Positions 1,444-36,209 of a stretch of DNA of 64,000 nucleotides are shown here, piece by piece (the first letter of the stretch is position 1; the number at the start of each line of letters is the position of its first letter). The stretch is from Brachionus manjavacas (Eukaryota > Rotifera > Eurotatoria > Ploima > Brachionidae), in assembly GCA_019054805.1 (NCBI GenBank), contig JAHQIY010000027.1, positions 858,757-922,756 on the forward strand, read 5' to 3'. Both the position numbers and the translations under genes were made by a program. The notes below the pieces were generated by a model. The model was not told where the DNA came from. It made no database searches and saw nothing but the letters and a program-made list of their open reading frames with translations.

Positions 1444-4400
1444 TTGTTTGGTTGATATCCAAGGACCTCTTTTTCGACAATCTCGAATGGTCTCAAGTTT
1501 TTTTCATAGATGTTTGACAAATTGGTCCAGATATTGTTAACCATCGGTTTATTCCCATTGAATGGAAGTGATCTGAGTTTTATTTTCTTAGCTCTGAGTA
1601 GTTTCGAGTCTAAAATTTGGTCCATTTCGTCTTTTTTGATTCTCAAACTGTTTTTAAACTCACTGAATGATGCCTAAAATTTTTGTTAACATTTTGCTTT
1701 AATTTTTGGAAAATATTTTACCATTAAAACATTCTTTAGCCAAGAATACATAGTCTTTTCTTCATGGTTAACTTGATCAGCTATATTTAGTGGGTAAATT
1801 TCATTTAGATCAAGATGCTTGAAAAAAGTTTGAACCAATTTCGGAAATGCACCGAAATTGTAGCAATAAGTGGAATCGCCAAAGCCCAGAATGCTGTATT
1901 TCACATGAGGATATGTCTTATCCATAAATGCTTTTTTTGCCATTTCTATTTCACCTCTGATTTATTTTTAAGATTTTTAGTAAATAATAAAAAAAAATTT
2001 TTTTGGAGTATATGTGATATTTAAGATTTTAAAATTAAATTTTTTAAATTTATTAAATAAAAAAAATTAAAGCCAAGTCTCCATCAAAATCACCAGATTT
2101 AAACCTTATACAATTTTTAAGAAACAAACTTGAAGTTTTTAAATGAGAAAAATTTATTTTAAACTTTTCCCTGAGAGATGTCAAAATTGTGTCGAGCATA
2201 AAAAAAAGTAAAGAACTTTATTGAACTTAAATTTCAACAAATTAAATCTTAAAACTTTTTTTGCGAGAAAACTACACAAAGTAAGCTCATTACTAAAAAG
2301 AGATACCTGCCAGATTGTTATGGTTTAATTGACAATATATTAATTTTCTAAGTATTATTTTTTTTTTAATAAAAAAATATTTTTTTTGGTTTTTAAAAAA
2401 ATCGAATATGTATCATCTTGAATTTGGTGACCAATTCAGAAAAATGGTATTTTTTTTATTTTTTTAAACAATAAAATTAAATCGATTTTTCAATTTATTA
2501 AAAGTAATAAACTCACTTTTTTTAAAATTTATTTTGAAATTTTTTATTTCAAAAGTATTTATATCAATAGCATTCAAAATGGACATTTAAAAAAGGAAAG
2601 AAAAATTTATAGACAATTAAATAATTCGTCAAATAGAAGAAACTTGCTAGAATTCGAGCCGAAAATTTCCTTTTATTTTAGTTGTATTTCTCAAAAAATG
2701 TGTCTCATTTAAAAGAAAATTTGCCACTCATTTTTCATTTAAAACATGTATTTTATTGTTTTCAGTGCAATTTAAGCATGGAATTCGATAATTAAAAGAA
2801 AAATGGGAAATTATTGAAGGTTCAGTAGAGATTACTACCTATTTAGAAAATTATTTTGAATATTGATAATAAAAATCCAGACTAATTAAAAGCAGAGTTG
2901 TTTAAAAGTCACAAGTCTCAAATCAAGTCCAAGTCCGGGCTTTAAAATTTTGAATACTGAAGAAGAATTGTGAAGACTTTTATGCTAAAATTGCAAGTAA
3001 ATTCTGAAATTAGACAACCCAGAAGTATAAATTTTTTGATTTAAAGCCTGATCTAGGAAATTAAAAAAAAAAAAATTTTAAAGTCCGGACTAGGACTATT
3101 TTTTTTAACACTCAAAAACCTCAGAGGTTTTTTTCGACCCTTTTTGGTACTTCTTTTGCTTGTTGTTCCAAAAATGTAATCTTTTTTTTCCATCAAAACT
3201 AAAATCCAAAAAATATTATAAATAATTAATTTTGATTACAAAACAATTTTATTTTAATGCTAAATAAAATTAATACCCGGAGAGGGTTTTTTGGGGTTAT
3301 ATTTAATCGACTTCTATAATTACTAAACCGTATAGTAACAACCCACTTCAGTATATGTCTTTTAAACTTTCTTTTCATTTTTTTTTAACTTGTTGATTTT
3401 ATTTTAATTTTTTATTAACTCTATTTTTATTTTATTTTTTTTTATAATTTATTCTGAAGTAGCTCTAGCTCGGTACAAAAAACAAATAAATATATAAAAT
3501 AAAAACATTTTTAGATATAGGTTCAGTTATTATAGAGAACGATTAAATATTAAACCCGTCTTTTTGGGTTATATTTATTAGATTTTTCCTTAAAATTAGA
3601 CATAATTTTTTTTAATATCAAAGCAAAATAAATAATAAAAAAAACCCGGTTTTGAGTGCTAATGACTTGGACTTTATTTTAAGACTATCAAAAACTCTGG
3701 TAAAAGATGTGCCATTTTCATTTGTTTATATTTTATATTTTTTTTAATTAAAAAATTTCAAAATAAGCTTTACAAAAAGTAAGTTAAAAAATTTAAATTT
3801 AAAAGGCGATTTTAAAAATGGATTTAAATAATATTCTTTTTTTGGTTAAATTATTTTTTACAACTAAAAAATGAATTCTTTAAAAAAGCCCAAAGTTGAA
3901 AATATCTTTTATTTGACTGAAAATGTGCAAGAAAAATCATACAAAATAAAAACTTACTTTTTTATCTTGTTCATTAAGTCTTCGAGTGTTTTTCCATTAG
4001 TTGGCGAATCGCCGTTGCCAGTAGTGCTAGCTATGGCTAGAACCAAATCTTCTGTGTCTAGCTCGGACAAGTTGTAATCATTAATGCATCGCAGCTTTTG
4101 AATAGTATTATTTAAATAAAATATATTTTTTGGCAGCTCTCACTTTGGTATTGAAAATTTTGCTGAATACATTAAAAGTGATTTCGGCAAAATTTTTCGA
4201 CTTTCCAGTCTGACTAGCATAGAGAATGCAGCACTTTGGTCGAGTTTTTAACTTTGCGTTTGCTGACACCAAAAATGGGAGCACACATTTGACCAGAGTT
4301 CTAAATTTTATTGAAATCTTTGGTAATCTTGGCATTTCCTGGAACAAAAAAAAACTAAGTAAAAAATCAAGCAGACATTTTTTGTTTACCTGATACTCAA

Positions 4401-7400
4401 AGTAAGGCTTTATGACATAGTTGAGCATTTCCATTCCAAATATTGGAGTAATATGGCCCGAAATCGGTGGAGTTATCCAAACCCAATCGCCCGGTGTTCC
4501 CCCCCGGATTCTCATTTCGTTCTCCCAGTGTTTGACAAAAGATTCTGACGCAGTGTGATGGTCAACAATAGTCACGCCAGCTTTGTTAAAAGAGTACAAA
4601 ACTGCCTTGTTTAGTTCAACCAAAACCTCATCTTTCCATAATGAAACATTGGTGCTTGTGTCCAAACCCATTACTTTAGCAATTACTCTTAGTTTGTCGA
4701 ATCTATTTGGCTCGGTTAAATCACGTCCAATCTCAGTGTTCATGTACCAGCCATTAAATGGCACACAATTGAAATAAGCACCTCCAGCGTCTAGGAGCAA
4801 AGATGAAACAGCTGGAACTGCGTACCATTTAAGCTTTAAGTCCCTGAATGCTTCGTATCTTTAATAAAATTAGTTATTTTATTAAATTTTTTTTCATAAA
4901 TTTATTCCCAAAGTTCTGATATCTTGCTCGATTTAGTCGAGGGGCCATGATGCATTCAAAAACAGAACATTAGACAAAAAAATGACCAAACATTTGACAA
5001 AAATGAATTGCCATTTAAAAAGTTAATTTGGAACTAAATTTTATGTCTTTTTTAGACAACTAAAATGTCATGAAATGGACTTTTAAATTTTTTTTAAGTC
5101 CAGGTTTTGACTTCATGGAAAAATTTGGTAAATTTCGAACATTTTACGTAAATTTATGTAAAAAAAATGTCCAAAAAATTGAAATTATTTGACACTTTTT
5201 AAAAAAAAAATGATTTTTTTTACCTTCAATATTTATTTTCAAAATTATGTATAAAAAAAGTAAACTATAATTTACGTAAATTTTGGTAAAATGTCAAAAT
5301 TACATTAAACATTTAAAAAGGTTAAAAAATATATAATAAAATTATAATTATTTTAAATTAAAATCTAGATAATAATCAAAGTAATAGGAAATCAAGGAGG
5401 TTGGTCAAACAATTAAAAAGAACTAAAACAACTCAAGATATTTTTTTTAACGTAAAAAAATCTAAATAAATTTTTTTTTTAATTTGATTTAAAATTTTAA
5501 TAAACCATTTTTTACTATTTTTTACCATTAAATTGATTTCATTTTACTAATTTTTACGTAAATTTTGGTAATTTTTTTTTATACATTATTTTGAAAATAA
5601 ATATTGAAACTGATAAATTATTTCAATTTTTGGACATTTCTTTATGAAAAAATTTGGTAAATTTCGAACATTTTACGTATATTATCGTAAATTACTAAAT
5701 CCCGAATTTTTTCATTCCCTACTTTAATCTTAACTGGATATAAATTTTTCCTATTTTTAAAAATCATGCAAAAATTTCTAGACCAGTTTATATCAATTCT
5801 GTTAAAAATAGACCATTCATTTAAACTTTTTGTTGTAACTTTTAATTTTATCAAAGCTGTTTCAAGGTGTTTTTCAGATATACTTATCATCTGCAAACAT
5901 TTTGATACTTAAATTTTTTAAATAAAAATGATAAATCATTAACAAAAATACGTGGTCCTAAACAGATCCCTGCGGTACACCTAATTTTAATTTACAGGTT
6001 TAGACATTTTACTGCCAATTCTAACTATCTGAGATCTATTTTCAAAATAGCTTGAAACAAGACCCAAAGAAGAATTATCAAACCATAATGGAAAAATTTT
6101 AAAAGTTATAAATTTGTATCAATAACATTGAATGCTTTCCTAAAGCCATTAAACAAAGAAACAGTTGTTTTATTTAGCTTTATTTATTTCACTAATATAC
6201 TCATGGATTACTGATTGACAAGAATGTCCATTTCTATAACCATGCTGCCTTTAAATAAAATCTTATTCGATTCGAAATAATAAGATATCTGTTTTATTTT
6301 TAAATAAAGGATTAAAAATGGCAATTTTCTAGTCTTCCGTAATATTTTTTATAACTAAACAATTATTAAAGAGCTATTATAATAATGGAACAAAAAATTC
6401 GACGATATGTTTAATGTGATGGAAAAAAAACATTCCTAGGTAAAAGGAGAGAAAATGTGCAGTAATGGTGAATATTCATTATCGCCAAATTTTATTATAT
6501 ATTCTGAAATAACAAAATGTTGGGATTATTTTTTTTTAAAAATAATTATTTTTGGTGCGAATAAATAAATTAATTTTGGCATTTTTTAAAAACTATGTTA
6601 TGAATAGTTATGAATTACGAAGATATAAAGAAAAGACATGTCCTTGGTTATTTCAATCATTTCAATTCAAAGAGTTTATCTTTAGATATTAAAATTAATA
6701 TTTAAATTCTAAAAAATTTAATTTCAAAAAATATTTTTTAAAAGGACTTATTATTTTCGAAAATATGATACAATTTTACACTTGTTTCAAAATGTTAAAT
6801 TTTCATCATTCTTCTCTATTAGATCACTACTTTTCTTCTTTTTGAAATTACGGAGACTTTGTATTAATTTAAATCATTTTAATGTAGCATCCTTTACATG
6901 TTATGTAGATTTAAAACGTTAATTAAAACAAAAATTTTTTAACCCATTTTAAAAATCGATTTTTTAATTTGAATTTTTTTATTCCGAACATGCTGCTACG
7001 AAAGATCGATCTTTTCTTTTTATTGCTTATTTTAAATTTAATTTTGAATGTTAGATACAAATACTTTTAAAATAAAAATTTACAAAAAACCTTTTATAAA
7101 TTCAAATTAAAAATCGATTTTTAAAATGGGTTAAATATTTTTGTTTTAATTATCTTTTTAAATCAACATAAAGGATGTTACATTAGTTTATTTAGAATTA
7201 AAATAAAAAATTTAACTTTCAATTGATTAACAAGGCAAAAATAAAACAAAATTCAAAAAGAATTACAGAAAATAACAGAAAAAATTACAGAAAGTAAAAT
7301 GACTGTTTGAAACATTATGGAATTGATTGAAATGGAAAAGATGGGTGCTAAGTGAATTTTGTTGGATTAAAATTCCAAAAACAGTCAGCAGCTGATGTAC

Positions 7401-8886
7401 AGAAAATGAGAAATATGAGAATTTTTTTTTTAAAAGGTCTTATTTTTTTTGAAAACTACATAAAATTCCAATTGTGAAATTTTCATCATTAAATCATCAT
7501 TATTTCAATTTTCATCATAGCATCATTATATCATATAAGATCATAAATTTTTTTTATCTTTAAAAAAATATCTGCTAACCATTACTTTAATAAAAATTAA
7601 AGCACATTAAACAAATACTTGACAATTAATAAATATTATTTATCTAAAAATTCTAACTCTACAAATCTTCGACTTTAAAAGCGACAAAAAAATGCTGCAG
7701 AACAAGAAAGGGCTATTGGAATAAAATAATAGCAACAGGAAAATTAATTATTTTAAAAATTTTAATAAAGATAATTTAAAAAATTTTTTTCTACTTAAAC
7801 AGTTATTTTTTTATGCTCAAAAAATTACTTTGGATGCACAATATCGACTTGTAGCACCAAATCAGCTGGTAGTTCAAACAACTCCGGTTTTTTTCCATCT
7901 ACCTGCAAAACAAGAGGCAATACTTCGAATTCAGTCCGCTTGCCCTTCCATCCCAAAGCTTCGCATATCTTTAGCAAGAAAAATTAAAAAATGAGCCCTA
8001 AAAAAATTTAATTTTTTACTCTGGTAAAAGCAATTTGTGATTTATCCCCGATGGTCTCATTTTCGCTGATTTCATAACCAGCATAGCATATCAATTGACT
8101 ATTCCAAATTGTCACATCTGGTCTATCTTTAACTCTTTGCCTGAAAACAGTGATGGCCGATCTGATATTTCCACCATTGGTGGCATATCTTAAATGTTCG
8201 CATATCATGTCGAACATCTCTTTGGTAGAAGTGCAGTGTCGACCATCGAACAGCTTTATTTTTGACCAGTTAATTCTGCCAATACATCGGGATGCATTTC
8301 TCCAGGCAGTTCTACAAGCAAACTCCAATTCTTCAAAGCCTAAATCAAAATATCCATTTTTTCTAAAGCCAATCTCCGCATGTTTTAGCCTCTCAGAATG
8401 ATCAGGCGAATTTTTTCTATTAATAAAATGAAATGAAAAAAAGCTCTTAAAAATTTATTCTTACTTATTTATTGACTCGAAATACTGATTTAAAAATTCC
8501 GCATTTTCTTCTCTAGCCTCGTTGGGCTCTTTTTGCTGATTGATTTTCACAAAGTTATTCTTCAATATTGAACCCTTGCAATGGGTTTTCGTGCAGCCAA
8601 GTCCCTAAATGTCACATTAGTTCAATTTCGAAAAAAAAATTAATGATTTCTGATCTACCTTAGCGGATTTGTTGTGAAAAGTTTCACTAAAGCTTCTTCC
8701 ATCACTGAAACTGTTCAAAACGGCAGCTCTAAAAGGACATGATGGCACCGGGCTGGTCCCCGATGAAACCTTGGCATGTGCACACACAGTCTTTGTACTT
8801 TTATTTGGTTTAATTGGGGGCTTTAGAGCAGAGGACGCGGCAAGACCGGTCGGACTTTCATTAAGTTTTTTTTTTAAAATGGGCAT
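1444..8886 (-). CDS. NOS: Nitric oxide synthase, 5' nine exons (partial gene)
   Basis: Makes NO and citrulline from arginine. Exons on the minus strand: 8886-8659, 8604-8465, 8416-8020, 7968-7829, 4858-4390, 4338-4144, 4094-3958, 1956-1722, 1673-1444. All junctions are GT/AG and phases agree, giving about 723 residues. The start is ATG at 8886, with an in-frame stop upstream at 8923. Visible landmarks: a CX4C zinc motif (C80, C85), the haem-ligand motif [10 protein letters not shown] (ligand near C167), the substrate motif GWYMNTEIG, the pterin region [10 protein letters not shown], a basic-hydrophobic calmodulin-type linker after FEYQ, then the FMN loop [10 protein letters not shown] and ASTTGNGD. 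The FAD/NADPH domain is outside the window. There is no PDZ domain, and no long autoinhibitory insert between GNGDSP and the [12 protein letters not shown] segment. Introns are 47-54 nt except intron 4 (2970 nt) and intron 7 (2001 nt), both filled with mobile-element debris. Confidence 0.95.
2072..2345 (+). pseudogene. Tc1/mariner-type transposase relic (C-terminal)
   Basis: Within NOS intron 7. The plus strand reads [20 protein letters not shown], which matches the Tc1 transposase motif around the last catalytic acidic residue (SPDLNPIE-type). Downstream, a degenerate frame near 2300 reads [13 protein letters not shown], similar to the Tc1 SMPRR..VI tail. Several stops and frameshifts separate the two, so it is dead. 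I could not delimit terminal repeats. Confidence 0.5.
2893..3113. mobile_element. hAT-type MITE relic
   Basis: The left end reads CAGAGTTGTTTAAAAGTC and continues with AAGTC-rich sequence. The right end, read in reverse, gives a degraded version (GAGTGTTAAA...) followed by the shared AGTCCGGACTTTAAAATTTT block. The left terminus is the same family as the better-preserved copies at 21037-21394 and 22146-22559. No target duplication is recognisable here. It lies in NOS intron 7. Confidence 0.5.
3440..3500 (+). repeat. Dispersed LINE-like 3' tail, family A
   Basis: An ATTT-rich lead is followed by ATTCTGAAG, a short palindromic AGCT..AGCT core, CGGTACA, and an (AAATA)n tail. The same arrangement recurs at 11545-11603 (plus) and 21655-21725 (minus). 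A conserved short core plus a simple A-rich tail is what 3' ends of truncated non-LTR elements look like; the assignment is inferred. Confidence 0.45.
5110..5690. repeat. Foldback element in NOS intron 4
   Basis: Long imperfect inverted arms run about 5166-5300 and 5530-5642; each can be read as AATGTCCAAAAA..TTGAAAT...TCAATATTTATTTTCAAAAT on opposite strands. Outside them a direct repeat of about 40 bp (GGTAAATTTCGAACATTTTACG core) occurs at about 5116-5155 and 5645-5685. No coding capacity. It probably represents a palindromic MITE; family unknown. Confidence 0.5.
5690..6410 (-). pseudogene. Non-LTR retrotransposon reverse transcriptase relic
   Basis: In NOS intron 4, in fragmented minus-strand frames: [20 protein letters not shown] (RT fingers region, near 6240), [15 protein letters not shown] (near 6050) and KLGVPQGSV (near 5965), then a degenerate [13 protein letters not shown]. 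The order matches a LINE reverse transcriptase. Multiple stops and frameshifts show it is inactive. It belongs to a different lineage from the Jockey-like copy at 25470-26605, judging by the GHSC motif. Confidence 0.75.
6864..7200. repeat. Palindromic MITE-like foldback element
   Basis: Inverted arms of roughly 110 bp lie at about 6866-6983 and 7088-7200, sharing blocks such as AACATCCTTTA, AATTAAAACAAAAAT and TTTAACCCATTTTAAAAATC. They are separated by about 105 bp. No ORF. It lies in NOS intron 4. Confidence 0.6.
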
Positions 8887-13838: not shown

Positions 13839-14453
13839 ATGGGTAACTACTCTGGTTTGTATTCACGATCTGAAAGCGGTGTCATCCGGCACAACTTTTC
13901 CCAAGAATCCGAAGAATTCCTGAACAACTTGGTAAACATTTTGATCACTGGGTGCTATGGCTGCGAGTCAATGGCCTACTATTTCGACCGCAGCGACATC
14001 GGGCTGTACGGCATAGCCGACTTTTGCCGCTACAGCTCTTTTTTTGTCATGCGCCTCAACAAAACAATAATGGACTATATTGTAGAGCGCGGCGGAAAGA
14101 TCTCTCTAGTCACAATTCCCAAGCCTGACTGGGGCCACAACGTCAGCCCCATGAAATTTATGGAATGTCTTTTGGGCAAGCTCAGGGACTTGTACAATTT
14201 TGGCCTGAAGGCGCATGAAAATGCGGACATCAAGAACGATCCGAATTTGACCGATTTCTTGGAAATCGAGCTCATCGAACCCGTGGCAATGATCATCAGA
14301 GAGATAGAAGTGATGCTGTGCAATATGAACTTGGCTGGAACTGGCCTTGGAGAGTTCGAGTTCAACAAAGATCTAGAAAGGTACTTGCATGAATATGTGG
14401 ATCAAAAATTGTCTCTGCTCGACAAAATTGAGCTAGAACAAATTTGGCTTTGA
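13839..14453 (+). CDS. Ferritin-like protein 1, ferroxidase residues absent
   Basis: 204 residues, single exon, no signal peptide. Ferritin is recognised from NFSQESEEFLNN, SMAYYFDRSDIGLYGIADF, ERGGKISL, the NDPNLTDFLE helix and the GLGEFEFNKDL C-terminal motif. In a gap-free alignment by eye with vertebrate H-ferritin, the metal ligands E27, Y34, E61, E62, H65, E107 and Q141 become L, C, F, V, L, L and V, so iron oxidation at the usual site is not expected. A proline replaces E140 (LIEP). The N-terminus has about 15 extra residues, and a C-terminal extension follows GEFEFNK. AATAAA polyadenylation signals lie at 14468 and 14485. The next paralogue begins 147 nt downstream. A structural shell or chaperone role is inference. 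Confidence 0.93.
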   Translation: MGNYSGLYSRSESGVIRHNFSQESEEFLNNLVNILITGCYGCESMAYYFDRSDIGLYGIADFCRYSSFFVMRLNKTIMDYIVERGGKISLVTIPKPDWGHNVSPMKFMECLLGKLRDLYNFGLKAHENADIKNDPNLTDFLEIELIEPVAMIIREIEVMLCNMNLAGTGLGEFEFNKDLERYLHEYVDQKLSLLDKIELEQIWL

Positions 14454-14600
14454 ATTAATTTTTTTTGAATAAAATTTTGAAATCAATAAATTTTTCAAAT
14501 TCTTAAACTCCCCTTTAAAAATAGTCAATTTTATTTTTAGCTTTTTTTTCAATATTTAAGAACTAAATTAGTCCCATAACATTTATCAAAAAAAAATAAA

Positions 14601-15140
14601 ATGGCTAGCATGAACCAAAGCGCTGAGGAACTATTGGGTCAATTGATCAATCACTTGATGTCTCTGGAACACAAGTGCAAGTCAATGGCCTCTTATTTTA
14701 GAAAAAACTACCAAGAAAAATTTGGCATTGCTGACTTTTACGAATGGTGCGCGCAAGACTTGGACAAGTGTGTGGAGCACGTGACGGATTATATGAAAAA
14801 AAATGGCAGTCAGGTGCAGCTAAAGCAAATTGAAAAGCCCTACACTGAAATCTTTGGTAGTCCCATAGAGTCTTTGGAGTACATTTTGAAAGAAGACAAG
14901 TGTTTGAGCCATTTGATGCACGACATACACGAATGGGCAAATGCTAAAGGTGACACTGGTCTTAAGGATTTCATGCACCATGAAATGATTGGCCCCATGT
15001 CGGCCTGGAATGAACAGATCGCCGAAATGATCCAAAAACTGCACAAGGCCAATGCCACACAAGATTTGAACCAGCTGGACAAAACTTTCAAGTCCGAGAT
15101 CAGCTTGATCAAACAATTGAGAGAAAAAAAATTAATTTAA
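14601..15140 (+). CDS. Ferritin-like protein 2, shorter and most divergent
   Basis: 179 residues, single exon. It retains the ferritin layout: LINHLMSLEHKCKSMASYF, FGIADFYEW, GLKDFMHHEMIGPM. The DRDD turn after helix A is replaced by RKNYQEK, and the GLxEY motif before helix E is lost. Ferroxidase positions by eye: E27 to L, Y34 to C, E61 to D, E62 to L, H65 to C, E107 to D, Q141 to M. Proline at the E140 position (IGP) is shared with its neighbours. It starts at ATG 14601 after AAAATAAA; the upstream TATA element is weak (ATATTTAAG near 14551). AATAAA at 15154. It probably arose by tandem duplication within the cluster and then diverged fast. Confidence 0.88.
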   Translation: MASMNQSAEELLGQLINHLMSLEHKCKSMASYFRKNYQEKFGIADFYEWCAQDLDKCVEHVTDYMKKNGSQVQLKQIEKPYTEIFGSPIESLEYILKEDKCLSHLMHDIHEWANAKGDTGLKDFMHHEMIGPMSAWNEQIAEMIQKLHKANATQDLNQLDKTFKSEISLIKQLREKKLI

Positions 15141-15491
15141 TTTGTTTTTTTTTAATAAAATCTTTTTTGTATTAAATTTTCTTTTTATATTAAGTGTTTG
15201 GCAAAATTTTTTCCCAAAAGTATCAAAGCCTGTGGTAATCTTTTACCAAAAATTTCAAATTGTCTACAAAATATATTTGTCAGACTATGAAAAAAAAATC
15301 TAAAAATTGGTATCGAAGCCATGTGGTGTTCCTTAACCGAAATTCTAAAATTCAAGAGAAAAAAAAATTTTCATGAAATATTTTTTATTTTGGCATCAAA
15401 GCCTAGTTGTTGTTCCTTTACCAAAATAGATCAAAGGGAGTTTAAATGAAAATATTCGGGTAGGAAAGTTAAAAATAAGCTTTCGTTTTGA
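15141..15491. other. Spacer between ferritin-like genes 2 and 3
   Basis: Non-coding. The phrase CAAAGCC..GTGGT near 15225, 15316 and 15402 recurs three times about 90 bp apart (TATCAAAGCCTGTGGTAATC, ATCGAAGCCATGTGGTGTTC, CATCAAAGCCTAGTTGTTGT), each followed by TTACC or TTAACC. It is a small degenerate direct repeat in the promoter-proximal region. Confidence 0.4.
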
Positions 15492-15498
15492 TATAAAT
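15492..15498 (+). promoter_or_regulatory. TATA box of ferritin-like gene 3
   Basis: TATAAAT in GATATAAATTT, 50 nt before ATG 15548. Confidence 0.5.
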
Positions 15499-15547
15499 TT
15501 GCCAAGTGGTTCGATCAGTGTTAAGACATCAAACAAAAAAATCTAAA

Positions 15548-16270
15548 ATGCACACAGTAAGGACATCATTGGTGAAGCAAAATTTGCATCCGGATTCGGA
15601 AAAGTGCTTGAACGAATGCATCAACGCGTTCTTGTATGGCGCCTACAACTGCAAGTCCATGGCTTACTATTTTGACCGCGACGACATTGGCATGTTCGGC
15701 ATGGCCAACTTCAACAAATGGTGCGCTGCCAAAGGATTCAATGACGCCAAGCTGATCATGGACCATATCACTGTGCGTGGTGGAAACGTGGTTTTTGAGG
15801 AAATCAAGAAGCCAGAACGCGATGAATGGGGAACCCCTTTGGATTCGTTGGAGCAATTGCTGAGCTACAAGTTGTGCTTGTACAAATGTGTTAACAAGTG
15901 CCATAAAAGCGCTCACGAGACTCATGATCCGCATTTGAACCACTTTCTCGAGACCATGATCCTAAGACCCTTGGTTGTGTTAATTAGAAGAGTTGGTGTG
16001 CTGATAGCCAATTTGAGGCGAGCTGGATCTGGCCTAGGCGAATACCAATTGAACAAGGATTTGGAGTGCTATTTGGAAGAGCTCAAGTACGTCCTGCCTG
16101 TTCAGCTTTCCTCATTCTCCAGAATTAACAGACGCTGGAAAAGTAAAGCGGAAGAAGAAGAAGCTTCGAGTGAGAGCTCAAGTGAGTCCGAGGATGAGGA
16201 AGATACGTCCAGGCTGTCGGTCAGATCTATTGTACCGGCTCTTCGCAACATTGCAGATCAACTTGATTAA
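15548..16270 (+). CDS. Ferritin-like protein 3 with acidic serine-rich tail
   Basis: 240 residues from ATG 15548. The frame is open to 15506, but only from a GTG, and the TATA box argues for 15548. Closest of the four to true ferritin: LHPDSEKCLNECIN, SMAYYFDRDDIGMFG, VRGGNVVFEEIKKPERDEWG, THDPHLNHFLET, GSGLGEYQLNKDLE. Ferroxidase ligands are nevertheless gone: E27 to F, Y34 to C, E61 to K, E62 to G, H65 to D, E107 to K, Q141 to L, with LRP at the E140 position. About 70 residues follow the ferritin fold, including KAEEEEASSESSSESEDEED, a likely casein-kinase-type acidic stretch, then RSIVPALRNIADQLD. Such a tail is not part of ordinary ferritin. AATAAA at 16290. Confidence 0.93.
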   Translation: MHTVRTSLVKQNLHPDSEKCLNECINAFLYGAYNCKSMAYYFDRDDIGMFGMANFNKWCAAKGFNDAKLIMDHITVRGGNVVFEEIKKPERDEWGTPLDSLEQLLSYKLCLYKCVNKCHKSAHETHDPHLNHFLETMILRPLVVLIRRVGVLIANLRRAGSGLGEYQLNKDLECYLEELKYVLPVQLSSFSRINRRWKSKAEEEEASSESSSESEDEEDTSRLSVRSIVPALRNIADQLD

Positions 16271-16545
16271 TTTTTTTTAATAAGTTATCAATAAATTTAC
16301 CTAAATTATTATTCTTTTTTTTTTACCCTAAAAGGTAATTAATTTTTTCTCTGCAGAAAGAAAAAGTAGATGGGAATAGGCTTTAAGTTATAAAATTTTA
16401 TTTTAAAAGAAATGGGAAATCAATTGCAAATAAAAGAAAAAATTTTCAAAAAAAAATTATATTTTTATTTATTTGACAAATGATTATAAAATAAAGCTAA
16501 AAGGAAACAAAATTTAAATAATTTACAAAATTTAAAAAATTTATT

Positions 16546-17342
16546 AAGGTAATGTTTGTTTCGAACGAAATTTTATACAGATAAAGAATGGCTACTTATA
16601 TATATATAAAACAACCAGAAAATCGTCCATCGGACAAATAGGTCACAAGGAACCCTAGTCAACCTTAAAATGTCCCAGAGGGTTTCATTTTTAACCAAAA
16701 TAGTTTTCTATATCGTTGAAAAGAGAATTTTATCAGCTCTCTAATGTCACCTAGATCTTATTTTTCAGATGCTTAGTTCAAAAGATATCATCAAAAACAT
16801 CCAAAAAACGACAAAATTATATTAAGTTCAAAAAATGGGGTTTTTTTGAATGAAATGTAATTACTTTGAATGGAATGAGCTTTTTCACCAGATTTTGTCT
16901 GATCGTAGTAAATACTCAATTTTAAGCAAAAAAGTGAGAATAAAATTCTTCCTCAAAATTTAAGACACTTCTTTATCATTTTTTACCTCAAAAGTGTATG
17001 TCTTTGCGAATAATATTCTTGTTTAAAAAATGCTAACTCTAAGAAAGTAATTATACACTTAAAAGATAGGGTAATGAATCAATTTAAAAATGTTATGCTA
17101 TGTCAGTCATTAGTGCACTTAGTTTTCTAAATTTTGCAATTAAAATTGTCTTTTTTAAGTCATTCCTAAATAAATTTTAATTCAATACCATTAAAATATC
17201 AATTTAAAAGTAAAAAAATGTTAAACCTATATTCTTAAAAATAAAATAAAGATGGGTAATCTTGAGGGAGGTATCTATTGAGACCTTTAAGAAGTAGTCA
17301 TTCTTTATCTGTACAAAATTTCATCCGAAACCAACATTCCTT
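16546..17342. mobile_element. Non-autonomous TIR element between ferritin genes
   Basis: Terminal inverted repeats of about 52 bp: the left begins AAGGTAATGTTTGTTTCG and the reverse of the right begins AAAGGAATGTTGGTTTCG. Both continue GAAATTTT.TACAGATAAAGA. Total length is about 797 bp with no ORF. The target duplication is not clear. Superfamily unassigned. Confidence 0.7.
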
Positions 17343-18522
17343 TCATATTTTTTTAATTTAAAATTTGGGAAAAGCTTTATTGGACCCTCGTTAATATATA
17401 TAAATAAAGTTTTTTACTTTTTTTTAATAAACAAACCCTTGAACTAAAAAGAAAATCAAGAATAATCAAAGATTGCCTTTTCTTTATTTAATCAAAATCT
17501 TAATTTATCATTTGTAAATATTTAACTAGAATTTAAAAATTTTAGGAACAAGCAAACTGAAGAGACAATTTTTTTGTATTTCTTTACTTTTATCTGACTT
17601 TGATTCATTTCTGATTAAAAAGACCTAGCTTAAATTAAGGATTGATGTTAAAAAAAAAGAAAAGAAGAAGACAAGAAAATAAAAAAAAAGAAGCTGCATT
17701 TCCGCATGGAGTTTCCGATATGAGTTGATTTTATAAATTTATAAATTAGACCATCAATATAATTTGTGATCACAAAATAAATTAAATGATCATAAAATTG
17801 ATTCTTTCGGTTATCTAGAATCAAATTTTCTAAATCTTAAATATATTGTTCCTTAATCAAACTGATAAATTATCTTTTATTAATGAAGAAACCAATTTTT
17901 ATCGTTTAAATATTTTTTTCAACCACTACACCGAAACGATGAATTTTTATCAATTTTGACTTGCCTGAGGATTTTTAAAAAATAAAAAAGATAAAAGTTG
18001 AAAATTTAAAAGAAAGCGAAATGAATTCTGAAAATTGATAAGACTTTTTTAAGAAAATATTAATTCTTATTTAGTTTAAAATTTGTAGACTTTTAATTTA
18101 TTTAAATTGCTTTATTTAATTACTTTCAAATACGACTTTAAATTAAAAGAGATAAAAATGGATTAATAAATTTTTTTTATTTTTCATTTTAAGTTAATTC
18201 AAAAATTAATTAAAAAATTTCTATCTATTTCGGATAGATTGAATTTGTTTAAAATTTCCGGTGAGCAAAAATTTGACAAAAAAAACTTTAAAATAAATTT
18301 TTTTATTCAGTCTTAATATTGAAAAAAAATTGAAAAACGAAACTCTAAAAAAATGTGAATATTTCTTACAGGATTAAAAAAATTTTAGAGAAAAAAACAC
18401 CCATAGTTCAAATAGAAAGGAATTTAGAACACTTTGGATCGTTGGATCAAAATAGAATCAGTAAAAAAATGATAAAATAAAATTTATAAAAATAGTGCTG
18501 TGGGATAGCAGGCTAGTTTGGC
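17343..18522. other. Non-coding spacer
   Basis: No gene or clear repeat recognised; AT-rich, with one purine-rich tract near 17650-17695. Confidence 0.5.
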
Positions 18523-18529
18523 TATAAAA
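18523..18529 (+). promoter_or_regulatory. TATA box of ferritin-like gene 4
   Basis: TATAAAA in GGCTATAAAAATGG, 55 nt before ATG 18584. Confidence 0.6.
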
Positions 18530-18583
18530 ATGGAGCAATTAGCATCCATCAAATCATCAAATCAACCAAAATAATAAAACAAA

Positions 18584-19162
18584 ATGTCAGTCAGTCAAAA
18601 CGTATCAATTAGACAAAATTTCGATGAAACATCGGAATCGATGTTAAATCAGTTGATAAATGTTGTTTGCACCAGAAACTACACTTACCACGGAATAGCC
18701 TACTACTTTGATCGTGTTGACATTGGTCTGGTAGGCTTTGCCAGCGTGTTCAGACTATGTGCCACCTACTCACGAGACTTGACCCACAAAATGATGGACT
18801 ACTGTGTTCTCCGAGGTGGTCATGTCGTCCTCAAAGAAATTCCAAAGCCAGACTCGTCTGTTTACACTAACCCATCTGAGACTCTGGAGTTTTTGATCCA
18901 AAGCTTCAAGGACATTAACGATTTGGCCGTCTCGTTGCACAAAGCTGCCGATGAGAACCAAGACGGAAACATGACTGACTTTTTGGAGAGCGAAGTGATC
19001 AGACCAGTTGCCAGAGTGATCCGAAGAATCGGCGTATTGCTTGCTAATGTGCGCAGAGCTGGCCCGGGCCTTGGCGAATACCAAGTTAACAAACACTTGA
19101 AATGCTACTTGACCAAAATGAAACCAACTTTGGAAAACGTCAACTTCAGCCATGTTGTCTAA
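18584..19162 (+). CDS. Ferritin-like protein 4, ferroxidase residues absent
   Basis: 192 residues, single exon. Ferritin features: SIRQNFDETSESMLNQLIN, YYFDRVDIGLVGFAS, LRGGHVVLKEIPKPDSS, NMTDFLES and GPGLGEYQVNKHL. By eye, Y34 is retained, but E27 becomes V, E61 Y, E62 S, H65 L, E107 F and Q141 V. IRP occupies the E140 position. It has no tail as long as that of gene 3. It lies 2.3 kb from gene 3, separated by the TIR element at 16546-17342. AATAAA at 19194. Shared core changes with genes 1-3 point to one ancestor that had already lost the catalytic centre. Confidence 0.93.
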   Translation: MSVSQNVSIRQNFDETSESMLNQLINVVCTRNYTYHGIAYYFDRVDIGLVGFASVFRLCATYSRDLTHKMMDYCVLRGGHVVLKEIPKPDSSVYTNPSETLEFLIQSFKDINDLAVSLHKAADENQDGNMTDFLESEVIRPVARVIRRIGVLLANVRRAGPGLGEYQVNKHLKCYLTKMKPTLENVNFSHVV

Positions 19163-33800: not shown

Positions 33801-36083
33801 TTAAAAAAAATTTAATACTGTTTTTCTAATTTTTTGAAAAAATAGAATAAGTCTCTTGCGAAAAATTTCACTTAAAAAACTGTAAACGATTGTGCTACAG
33901 GAACAAGATAACAGGTAAAAAAATTTGCTTAAATCTAAAAAGTTGGTGCAAACTTTCGGCAATTGAGTACAACTTGAATTAATCAAAATTCCCACAAACA
34001 CATAAATCAAAATGCTTAACTCAAGCATTCGCAGAATAAGCAAGACAAAAAGGTTCAACAGCAGGCCAATTTTGATATTTAGCTCATTCTTTTCTATTTT
34101 TTTAACTTTTTTCTCATTAAACAAATTGAACAAATGTATTTTCCTATCAAAAATAGACTTCAATTCAATGATTAATAGCACATCTATAATAAAAACTAGA
34201 GAGTATAATACTAAATCATTGAGTAAAAACTCCGCTATGAATATAACATAAGAAAATATGTATTTGTTCTCTATTTCATTTGAAATACTTCTGCCGAGCT
34301 TATTTAAAATGAGGCTTTTGAAATAATACTTGATTGGAAATTCTTTGTTCAAATAATAGTCCACAGAGACAACATTCAAGTTATTTATTCTGGATGTCCA
34401 AATTCTGACCGAGTGAAGATAAACCATTGGAAAAAGAGCGAGAAAAAAGATGGGTATTTTGAAAATTAATTTGATTTTTTGACATTTGGAATAGAATTCT
34501 TCCAACTTCATGTTTCCTTTGAGTAAAAAATAGCGATTAAATGATATCATGGCCATGAGACAATTAGATAGTGTTTTTAAAATACTGCCCAAAAACTCCA
34601 CTATATAAATGTCATAAAGTTGAGCCAGAACGCTTTGGTAAAATTGTGAGCAAAAAAAGCCGGTGAAAAAAATACAAACATTTATTAAATGGAACAAATA
34701 GATAAAACAATAGATAAAGTTTAAAATTGAATTCAAAATCATCAGTTTGAACATCAAATTTTTGCTTTCTTTGTTTTTTCGGCTCAGAGTCCACACATTT
34801 ATTGTGTTCATTAGCAAACCGAGCACACTAAAAAATGGAGCTAGGAAAAAATTAACAAAAGCTACTTTTGAAGTTTCAAAAAGAACGTCAATCTTGTTGG
34901 CAAAAAATTTGACATCCTTGGGTTTTACACACTTTGAAATCATTTGATCAAAATCACAGGTCTTGTTCGAACATAAATTAGAATTTAATTTTCTATTTTT
35001 TTCTGTTCTTAGCTGGTCATCATTTTGAAGAATCCAAATAACTGTACATGAGCACAACTTGGCTCGTATAATTGGAAAAATAGGTCCATTTTTTGGAAAT
35101 TTTCGAAAAAGACAAATGTCTTCATTGGGATATTGATACCAATCGGGAGATAAGAAGCTCACAATTAAATCGTTCCCTATCTGCTTCAAATAGCTGAAAA
35201 GCCATTCGGAATTTCCGGATAAAAAGGTGTCCAAACCTACTTTGAGCCAAGATAATTCCCTAAAAGCAAACAGACAGTCACTGTCGGCCTCTTCAATGCT
35301 ACCTGTCAAATGTAGTTGTTTCACTCTTTGAAATAAATCCACTGAAAATAATCTTTTATTCAATTTAAATTTATAAAATTTGAACAGCAATAAATCTACT
35401 TTTAAATTAATTGTTTCATTAGTTGTTTCAAAAGAAAGGTAATTTTTTTTCACAAATATATCCGAAATGCCATAAAATTCAAGTCTACTCAAAGATAAGT
35501 TGCTAAATACAAAAGGACATGTATTTTGATAGAATTTGACAGATGTTGAAAATTTAATTGCATTGACATTTTTAAAAGGAGAAAATTTTTTTCTTGTGCA
35601 TTCGAAAATTTTGGACTTGTAAAAGTAGAGAAAAAAATGGGAATAATAAAAATTCAAAGATGTTATTGTAGAAAAGGGATTAAATGGGCTAGATGAAATG
35701 TCAATTCCTTTGATGTTAGCTAGTCGAAAGTGAGTTTTGTCTGCTAGCAAATTTGAATCGAAATCCATCTTGAGGCTTTTGTCTAGTATTAGCATTATTC
35801 TAGGTGCTATGCTAAATTCTCTAAAATAAATCCTATCACTTAAAAGACAATTTAAATCAATTTGATTAAAAGATCGAAAATTTGAAAAATCCAATTTAAT
35901 AGCAAGTCGACCAGACTGTAATTTCAGAGCCAGCACACTAAAACTACTTTCTCTCATAAAGTCAGAGCATTCGTTGATGTCAATTGCAGGGTCGAGCTCA
36001 TTTGGAATAGTTTTAATTTTTTTACATAAACCAATTTTGAAAAATAAAAATATCAAGCTAGAAATTTTTTTTTGAAGCATCAT
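33801..36083 (-). CDS. Orphan seven-transmembrane receptor with large ectodomain
   Basis: 760 residues, single exon. The first ATG is 36083; the frame is open slightly further only through TTG. Order: a hydrophobic signal-like N-terminus (SSLIFLFFKIGLC), then an ectodomain of about 400 residues with scattered cysteines and short hydrophobic periodicity (degenerate leucine-rich-repeat-like spacing is possible but not certain). Seven hydrophobic segments span about residues 405-740. TM3 ends MAMISFNRYFLL, where NRY replaces the rhodopsin-family DRY. TM7 has STIVYSFLSEIFRK in place of NPxxY. TM1 includes GLLMNTINVWTL, fitting the GN-type position. Ligand and coupling unknown. It is likely a lineage-specific rhodopsin-like receptor. 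Confidence 0.8.
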   Translation of the reverse strand: MMLQKKISSLIFLFFKIGLCKKIKTIPNELDPAIDINECSDFMRESSFSVLALKLQSGRLAIKLDFSNFRSFNQIDLNCLLSDRIYFREFSIAPRIMLILDKSLKMDFDSNLLADKTHFRLANIKGIDISSSPFNPFSTITSLNFYYSHFFLYFYKSKIFECTRKKFSPFKNVNAIKFSTSVKFYQNTCPFVFSNLSLSRLEFYGISDIFVKKNYLSFETTNETINLKVDLLLFKFYKFKLNKRLFSVDLFQRVKQLHLTGSIEEADSDCLFAFRELSWLKVGLDTFLSGNSEWLFSYLKQIGNDLIVSFLSPDWYQYPNEDICLFRKFPKNGPIFPIIRAKLCSCTVIWILQNDDQLRTEKNRKLNSNLCSNKTCDFDQMISKCVKPKDVKFFANKIDVLFETSKVAFVNFFLAPFFSVLGLLMNTINVWTLSRKNKESKNLMFKLMILNSILNFIYCFIYLFHLINVCIFFTGFFCSQFYQSVLAQLYDIYIVEFLGSILKTLSNCLMAMISFNRYFLLKGNMKLEEFYSKCQKIKLIFKIPIFFLALFPMVYLHSVRIWTSRINNLNVVSVDYYLNKEFPIKYYFKSLILNKLGRSISNEIENKYIFSYVIFIAEFLLNDLVLYSLVFIIDVLLIIELKSIFDRKIHLFNLFNEKKVKKIEKNELNIKIGLLLNLFVLLILRMLELSILIYVFVGILINSSCTQLPKVCTNFLDLSKFFYLLSCSCSTIVYSFLSEIFRKRLILFFQKIRKTVLNFF

Positions 36084-36209
36084 TTTCAATAAAAAAAATT
36101 GAACAAAATAATAAAAATTTAAATATTTATATTTTCTATTTACTTTTAAATAAAAGTGCTTCTAAAATTACACTCATTATTTATTTATTTAAAAGGATTG
36201 TATCAAATT

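Follow-up and report, generated by a model that had tools for sequence, protein, structure and literature searches.

Many invertebrates are already known to have ferritins that lack an iron site. Artemin, from the cysts of Artemia (PDB 7rvb; PMC9742257), is a protein of ferritin fold that has lost the nucleation glutamates and nearly all ferroxidase ligands, is rich in thiols (8 Cys in a 154-residue core), carries a C-terminal loop L' and helix F, and is held together between subunits by a Cys22-Cys61 disulfide. Atypical invertebrate ferritins, for example the sponge HdF2, have neither a signal peptide nor the original site, show low identity to human H ferritin and nearly all go without an iron-responsive element (IRE), according to a sponge survey of 533 sequences whose main text names no rotifer (PMC8395497). 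The vertebrate L chain, likewise without a ferroxidase centre, has H-chain partners encoded in the same genome. Here we describe a cluster of four tandem ferritin genes from the rotifer Brachionus manjavacas, lying in a 64,000-nucleotide stretch (the window) at the end of contig C27, in which the ferroxidase centre has been replaced in every copy.

Results

Four ferritin-fold genes without a ferroxidase centre

All four genes (Table 1) are intronless, with intact frames on the + strand. They match the Pfam family Ferritin (PF00210) at 39.6, 48.6, 60.7 and 59.3 bits for genes 1 to 4, each above the cut-off of 24.5 bits, and the coordinates at which an earlier note on this DNA had placed four tandem ferritin homologues (13839-19162) are correct. 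Site columns were anchored on an intact ferritin of the same genome, using residue numbers that we take to be those of human H ferritin. Over the seven ferroxidase sites (27, 34, 61, 62, 65, 107 and 141), 27 of the 28 cells are replaced, the sole survivor being Y34 of gene 4; gene 2 carries E31 besides D61 and D107. The combination by which we recognise an H-type chain (E27, E62, H65, E107 and Q141, with E61 and Y34) is found in none of the four. These alignments agree with the earlier note, which had reported E27, E61, E62, H65, E107 and Q141 as replaced in every copy (4/4, with Asp at 61 and 107 in gene 2), Y34 as surviving in gene 4 alone and a proline at position 140 (4/4). The helix-B cysteine that it described as shared holds for genes 2-4, at column 58, whereas the cysteine of the gene 1 FCR motif sits at 55.

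The alignments indicate that this loss is selective, beyond general divergence. We defined an invariant set of 82 columns, constant in five H-type chains (three from this genome, one from oyster and one from shrimp; the frog chain 5j8s, a site mutant, was excluded). Site cells are kept in 1/28 cases, against 135/298 for the other invariant cells (one-sided Fisher p = 2.7e-6). Gene by gene the test gives p = 0.017, 0.12, 0.0033 and 0.091 for genes 1 to 4, such that genes 2 and 4 taken singly miss 0.05, gene 2 being diverged throughout.

Aligned with a profile of the five intact chains, each of the four genes is gap-free through helices A-D. Gene 3 is also gap-free over 167 residues with the Crassostrea gigas ferritin chain 7dlb (a D119K mutant), gene 4 over 164 residues with another ferritin chain, and gene 2 over 139 residues with Tegillarca granosa ferritin. 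The one discordant alignment, of gene 2 with chain 8zn8 (Cys-Cys at columns 61-62), shifts helix B by three positions, which would place E67-H68 of gene 2 on E64-H65; none of the five intact chains produces this shift. The predicted model of gene 3 reaches a predicted local distance difference test score (pLDDT) of at least 90 for 115 of its 240 residues, located in the A-D region, and has template-modelling (TM) scores to oyster and shrimp ferritin of 0.93-0.94 when normalised to the target and 0.66-0.67 by query length, the latter being lower because the tail is unmatched. That of gene 2 has a mean pLDDT of 88.5, with all five helices well predicted, and TM scores to shrimp ferritin of 0.83 (query) and 0.88 (target). 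A ferritin fold is therefore predicted by model for genes 3 and 2 and by profile for all four, and the fold asserted in the earlier note is borne out by the match of both models to solved ferritins.

The cluster proteins have also gained cysteines and tails. Genes 1 to 4 encode 5, 4, 8 and 4 cysteines, compared with 0, 1 and 0 in the intact H-type chains of the genome, and extend 25, 16, 68 and 20 residues past the end of the D/N-K-x-x motif, compared with 1-5 in these chains. Given that helices A and B are antiparallel and that ligands 27 and 65 lie across from one another, C34 and C58 should do so as well (27 + 65 = 34 + 58). The terminal helix predicted for gene 3 has a pLDDT under 50. With a ferritin cavity of 8 nm and a protein volume of 1.21 nm3 per kDa, 24 copies of the last 64 residues of gene 3 (~176 kDa) would fill 213 of 268 nm3 if they lay inside the shell. 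Of the 3-fold channel, genes 1 and 4 retain H118, D131 and E134, and genes 2 and 3 one acidic residue each. The RGG and GLGE motifs are kept in genes 1, 3 and 4. The acidic nucleation columns (57, 60, 61 and 64) hold 0, 1, 0 and 1 acidic residues in genes 1 to 4, namely D61 of gene 2 and D64 of gene 4.

Table 1. Features of the window, with the residues found at ferroxidase sites 27/34/61/62/65/107/141 for the four ferritin genes.
Feature	Position in window	Strand	Site residues	Description
Gene 1, non-catalytic ferritin	13839..14453	+	L C F V L L V	204 aa, ATG-to-stop open reading frame, 5 Cys
Gene 2, most diverged of the four	14601..15140	+	L C D L C D M	179 aa, ATG-to-stop open reading frame, Asp at 61 and 107; C34, C58, C65, W57; GLGEY motif absent; nearest relatives on contig C5
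Gene 3, non-catalytic ferritin	15548..16270	+	F C K G D K L	240 aa, 8 Cys including C34 and C58, GLGEY kept
Gene 3, last 64 residues	16076..16267	+		Glu/Ser-rich stretch, final predicted helix 225-239 (low confidence)
Gene 4, non-catalytic ferritin	18584..19162	+	V Y Y S L F V	192 aa, Y34 kept, C58, 4 Cys
Nitric oxide synthase oxygenase domain exons	4108-8454	-		PF02898, E 3.2e-67 and 2.7e-49
Intronless 786-residue open reading frame	33801-36161	-		Membrane-protein-like by eye; no Pfam match at 0.001
337-base satellite	37190-64000			79.6 copies, 96% match, reaches the contig end; ~18 kb from the ferritin cluster

Relatives and descent

Two 20-base guide targets published for B. manjavacas (PMC10395877) occur exactly once each in the 114,169,980-base assembly and their reversed controls nowhere, which identifies the source as B. 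manjavacas or a very near relative and bears out the rotifer origin supposed in the earlier note. A six-frame Pfam search of this assembly returned 16 family matches, four of them the window genes. Three others (L001, L002 and L004), all outside the window, are H-type ferritins with an intact site, so that the absence of any visible H-like gene, as noted earlier, is true of the window and not of the genome. Identity to these intact chains is 31-39% for genes 1, 3 and 4 and 22-28% for gene 2. A further locus, L006, has an intron and keeps four of the seven ligands (E27, Y34, E107 and Q141, with D61, A62 and R65 changed); L007 is identical to it over the gene and lies 4.1 kb apart (contig C28:573658 and 577804). 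By their residues the two appear to represent an intermediate, half-changed state, and L016 is, by eye, another intron-bearing and partly changed copy. L008 encodes a secreted intact ferritin with 7/7 ligands and a start that is hydrophobic by eye, its exact position being uncertain. L003 and L005, on the small contigs C45 and C55 (GC 0.44, bacterial-looking genes), are likely assembly contaminants.

On contig C5, at 1.44-1.45 Mb, two copies are intact (L013 and L015) and one is shortened (L014); inverted repeats surround further broken copies at 1.456 and 1.461 Mb. The region C5:1442000-1462000 is densely filled with repeats, both inverted and direct and for the most part 94-99% identical, and these relatives of gene 2 lie among them, two gene 2-like copies being intact and at least three broken. 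Elsewhere, eight pattern matches for relatives on viral contigs yielded no confirmed case, a plasmid search found no relatives, and an NCBIfam search returned no match for any of the four genes.

Genes 1-4 form one clade at 95/99 in a 12-row tree that omits two long branches, the secreted ferritin and the copy on C5; its bootstrap had yet to converge, with 7 of its 9 inner branches still open. A 14-row tree includes the C5 copy (L013), which pairs with gene 2 at 100/99, and the window genes together with this copy form one side of a branch at 93/92. L003, L005, L007, L014, L015 and L016 were placed in no tree. In the latter tree a clade of genes 1, 3 and 4 alone is not rejected by the approximately unbiased test (p-AU 0.217). 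D71 and P96 occur in all four window genes and the C5 copy, and P140 in all four window genes and not in the C5 copy; C34 is found in genes 1-3 and C58 in genes 2-4, both also in the C5 copy. The trees support a single catalytically dead ancestor for the cluster and a clade of at least five members, which has also spread beyond the cluster, to C5. Of the earlier proposal of one dead ancestor followed by local expansion, the ancestor thus stands; the expansion was not solely local, given the kin of gene 2 on C5.

Gene 2 and L013, identical at 47/166 positions overall, share C34, W57, C58, A59, Q60, D61, L62 and D107. Their best-kept 12-column stretch (53-64, 9/12) falls on the site, although 234 of 5000 shuffles did as well.

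Upstream control and codon composition

An RNA hairpin with a C bulge and a CAGUGA loop is the shape of an IRE. L001, L002 and L004 each carry CAGCAGTGACTGT(T/A)CAAAC, with CAGTGA placed 26-37 bases upstream of the ATG, which can be folded into such a hairpin, its C bulge on the 5' side (4/5, 4/5 and 5/5 upper pairs). In a direct scan of the 600 bases upstream of each ATG, such a hairpin was found in 3/3 intact H genes and 0/4 of genes 1-4; gene 3 has one CAGTGT, with 2/5 pairs and no C bulge. Only 2 of 2000 single-base shuffles of the 600-base stretches yielded such a hairpin. Rfam reported no IRE, even in the intact H genes, either at the gathering threshold or at E <= 1, and the RNAfold minimum structure for L001 pairs the loop in another way; we therefore call the element IRE-like and uncertified. 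A possible 3' splice site lies near the hairpin of the H genes, so that the transcript ends are uncertain.

Heat-shock elements with at most one mismatch gave 101 matches against ~54 expected, 81 of them within the 337-base satellite; the two patterns used are reverse complements and hence a single test. The nearest one-mismatch elements lie ~170 bases upstream of gene 3 and ~440 bases upstream of gene 2, the latter inside gene 1.

The dead genes have a GC content at third codon positions (GC3) of 0.53-0.61, compared with 0.31-0.38 for the intact H genes and an expectation of 0.28-0.31 at 26% GC; the 500-base flanks have 17-36% GC. In 500 composition-matched draws per dead gene (26% GC) the highest GC3 was 0.37-0.39. 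Values above all neutral draws argue against decay, and may reflect strong expression. Codon adaptation to actin gave a mixed result: genes 2 and 4 exceed the neutral draws (0.72 and 0.73), gene 3 falls among them (0.64) and gene 1 matches the neutral mean (0.58), and one reference actin has a GC3 of only 0.27.

Resting-egg ferritins

Ferritin is reported as one of the most abundant proteins of Brachionus resting eggs (PMC6586685, PMC10821554). For the related B. plicatilis, a library made from resting-egg-bearing females yielded 28 clones (2.3%) that form one ferritin contig, with E 7.1e-25 against a pearl-oyster ferritin (PMC2667189), and a 'ferritin-like' contig with E 3.6e-25 was among the ten commonest resting-egg transcripts (PMC3253786). 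We computed E-values against oyster ferritin with a nominal database of 2.1e9 letters, a size guessed for the publication period. They are 1.7e-71 to 5e-86 for the intact H-type chains and 1e-56 for L006; genes 3, 4 and 1 give 1.3e-35, 7.5e-34 and 1.4e-25. Compared by E-value only, the B. plicatilis resting-egg 'ferritin' is nearer to the diverged copies than to a full-length intact H chain. The published values would fit a diverged copy, the secreted ferritin or a partial read of any of these, and a role of genes 1-4 in dormant eggs is only suggested by them.

As to other protein families, HSP20 has 33 matches genome-wide, including one on contig C45, which looks bacterial. The interval C1:11341631-11446243 holds several small heat-shock gene matches of equal score, which are likely near-identical copies. 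A search for LEA_4 gave no matches, and its controls were equally empty, so it is uninformative.

Discussion

We tentatively favour the view that genes 1-4 encode cytosolic ferritin-fold subunits which have lost the ferroxidase centre, stand outside iron control and would likely form thiol-rich protective shells in resting eggs. In such a scheme, loss of the centre together with that of IRE-like control would have freed the subunits from iron duty. Genes 1, 3 and 4 may still build or join 24-subunit shells, with the tail of gene 3 presumably lying within, and the abundant thiol-rich proteins would protect other molecules in the resting egg rather than store iron: a holdase role like that of artemin, reached independently of it.

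Several observations weigh against this view. The acidic 3-fold channel kept in genes 1 and 4 would be needless in an iron-free shell. The hairpin is also missing from the 600 bases upstream of L006, L013 and L008 (the start of L008 being uncertain), and its absence from L006 and L008 means that this is not peculiar to the dead genes. Upstream of genes 1-4 no perfect heat-shock element is present. With regard to the resting-egg transcripts, the secreted L008 reaches 5e-28 against oyster ferritin and gene 2, at 4e-5, fits no better, and the published E-values may stem from a partial transcript. Finally, ferritin may tint resting eggs red-brown (PMC6586685), which would fit an iron-loaded ferritin.

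The strongest alternative, although a rather doubtful one, is that genes 1-4 supply L-chain-like partners that co-assemble with the H chains (L001, L002 and L004), adjusting the stability of the shell, the entry of iron or the size of the core. With three intact H-type genes in the genome, co-assembly has to be kept in consideration, and the channel residues kept in genes 1 and 4 and the RGG and GLGE motifs of genes 1, 3 and 4 also speak for it. Yet the nucleation glutamates of L-type chains are absent, no IRE-like control is held in common with the H genes, identity to H is low, lowest in gene 2, and the gene 3 tail, if inside, would fill most of the cavity of a homopolymer.

It is unlikely that the gene 2 lineage has put a new metal or redox site in place of the old one, even though gene 2 and its relative on C5 both have C34, C58, D61 and D107, E31 and C65 are added in the former, and the best-kept stretch of the pair coincides with the site: the arrangement is not common to genes 1, 3 and 4, being confined to two lineages, and its shuffle support is modest. 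That genes 1-4 are decaying, functionless copies, as their high divergence, tandem arrangement and the broken relatives on C5 might suggest, is very improbable in view of four frames that run uninterrupted for 179-240 codons in AT-rich DNA, of GC3 values exceeding the maximum of the matched draws for each gene, and of the retained fold and motifs.

If the abundant resting-egg protein is a dead copy, its antioxidant or iron-handling reading, such as the antioxidant class assigned to resting-egg ferritin in one study (PMC3253786), would need revision, because the sequence predicts no iron oxidation. Gene editing has been published for B. manjavacas (PMC10395877), which makes the question testable in this cluster.

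Artemin is among the closest known systems to the preferred reading of protective shells, and the precedent suggested in the earlier note holds in part. Loss of the ferroxidase site and of the nucleation glutamates, gain of cysteines and a longer C-terminus are common to both, as is a host that makes dormant eggs. W57 of artemin also occurs in genes 2 and 3, and its W144-N145 in gene 2. In contrast, identity of artemin to genes 1-4 is 14-21%, compared with 26-29% to intact cytosolic ferritins; artemin keeps E27 (1/7 ligands), whereas all four genes replace residue 27; the column of its disulfide residue Cys61 (column 45) has no Cys in any window gene; and its 3-fold channel is uncharged, whereas genes 1 and 4 keep the acidic D131 and E134. 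At the C-terminus, where artemin has its loop L' and helix F, the window genes carry tails of 16-68 residues, that of gene 3 ending in a helix predicted at low confidence. In view of the low identity, the missing disulfide cysteine and the kept channel, the rotifer proteins may be artemin-like in action but are not classed as artemin. One study states that an artemin orthologue was found in no other species, the rotifer among them (PMC3253786).

The trees say little more on this relationship, as artemin is a very long branch. With the 12-row set, neither genes 1-4 and artemin as one clade (p-AU 0.367) nor artemin with shrimp ferritin (0.13) is rejected; in the 14-row tree the branch that unites the window genes, the C5 copy and artemin has support of 78/74. 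Shared ancestry of artemin and gene 2, considered on account of W57, W144 and N145, is likewise not rejected (p-AU 0.163, or 0.111 with the C5 copy), but with an overall identity of only 14% convergence is the explanation that we prefer for this likeness. We consider it quite improbable that artemin and the dead rotifer ferritins descend from an old protostome lineage of iron-free shells that first guarded dormant embryos; were this so, artemin would be the best-known member of that lineage and not a brine-shrimp oddity.

Compared with the vertebrate L chain, genes 1-4 share the fold, the missing ferroxidase centre and the presence of H partners in the genome, but they lack nucleation glutamates and have more cysteines than their own H chains, and gene 3 adds its tail. 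They resemble the atypical invertebrate ferritins in the replaced site, in having no signal peptide or IRE-like element and in low identity to human H ferritin, and differ in forming a rotifer clade of at least five members with cysteine gain and tails. A search of open-licence papers on rotifer ferritin, resting eggs and artemin listed none whose title or abstract opening describes dead ferritins in rotifers. What the cluster would add to the known cases is a multi-member clade, the absent IRE-like element, the gain of cysteines and a possible misreading of resting-egg ferritin; beside artemin, it may be the second instance, probably an independent one, of a shell for iron storage being put to other use.

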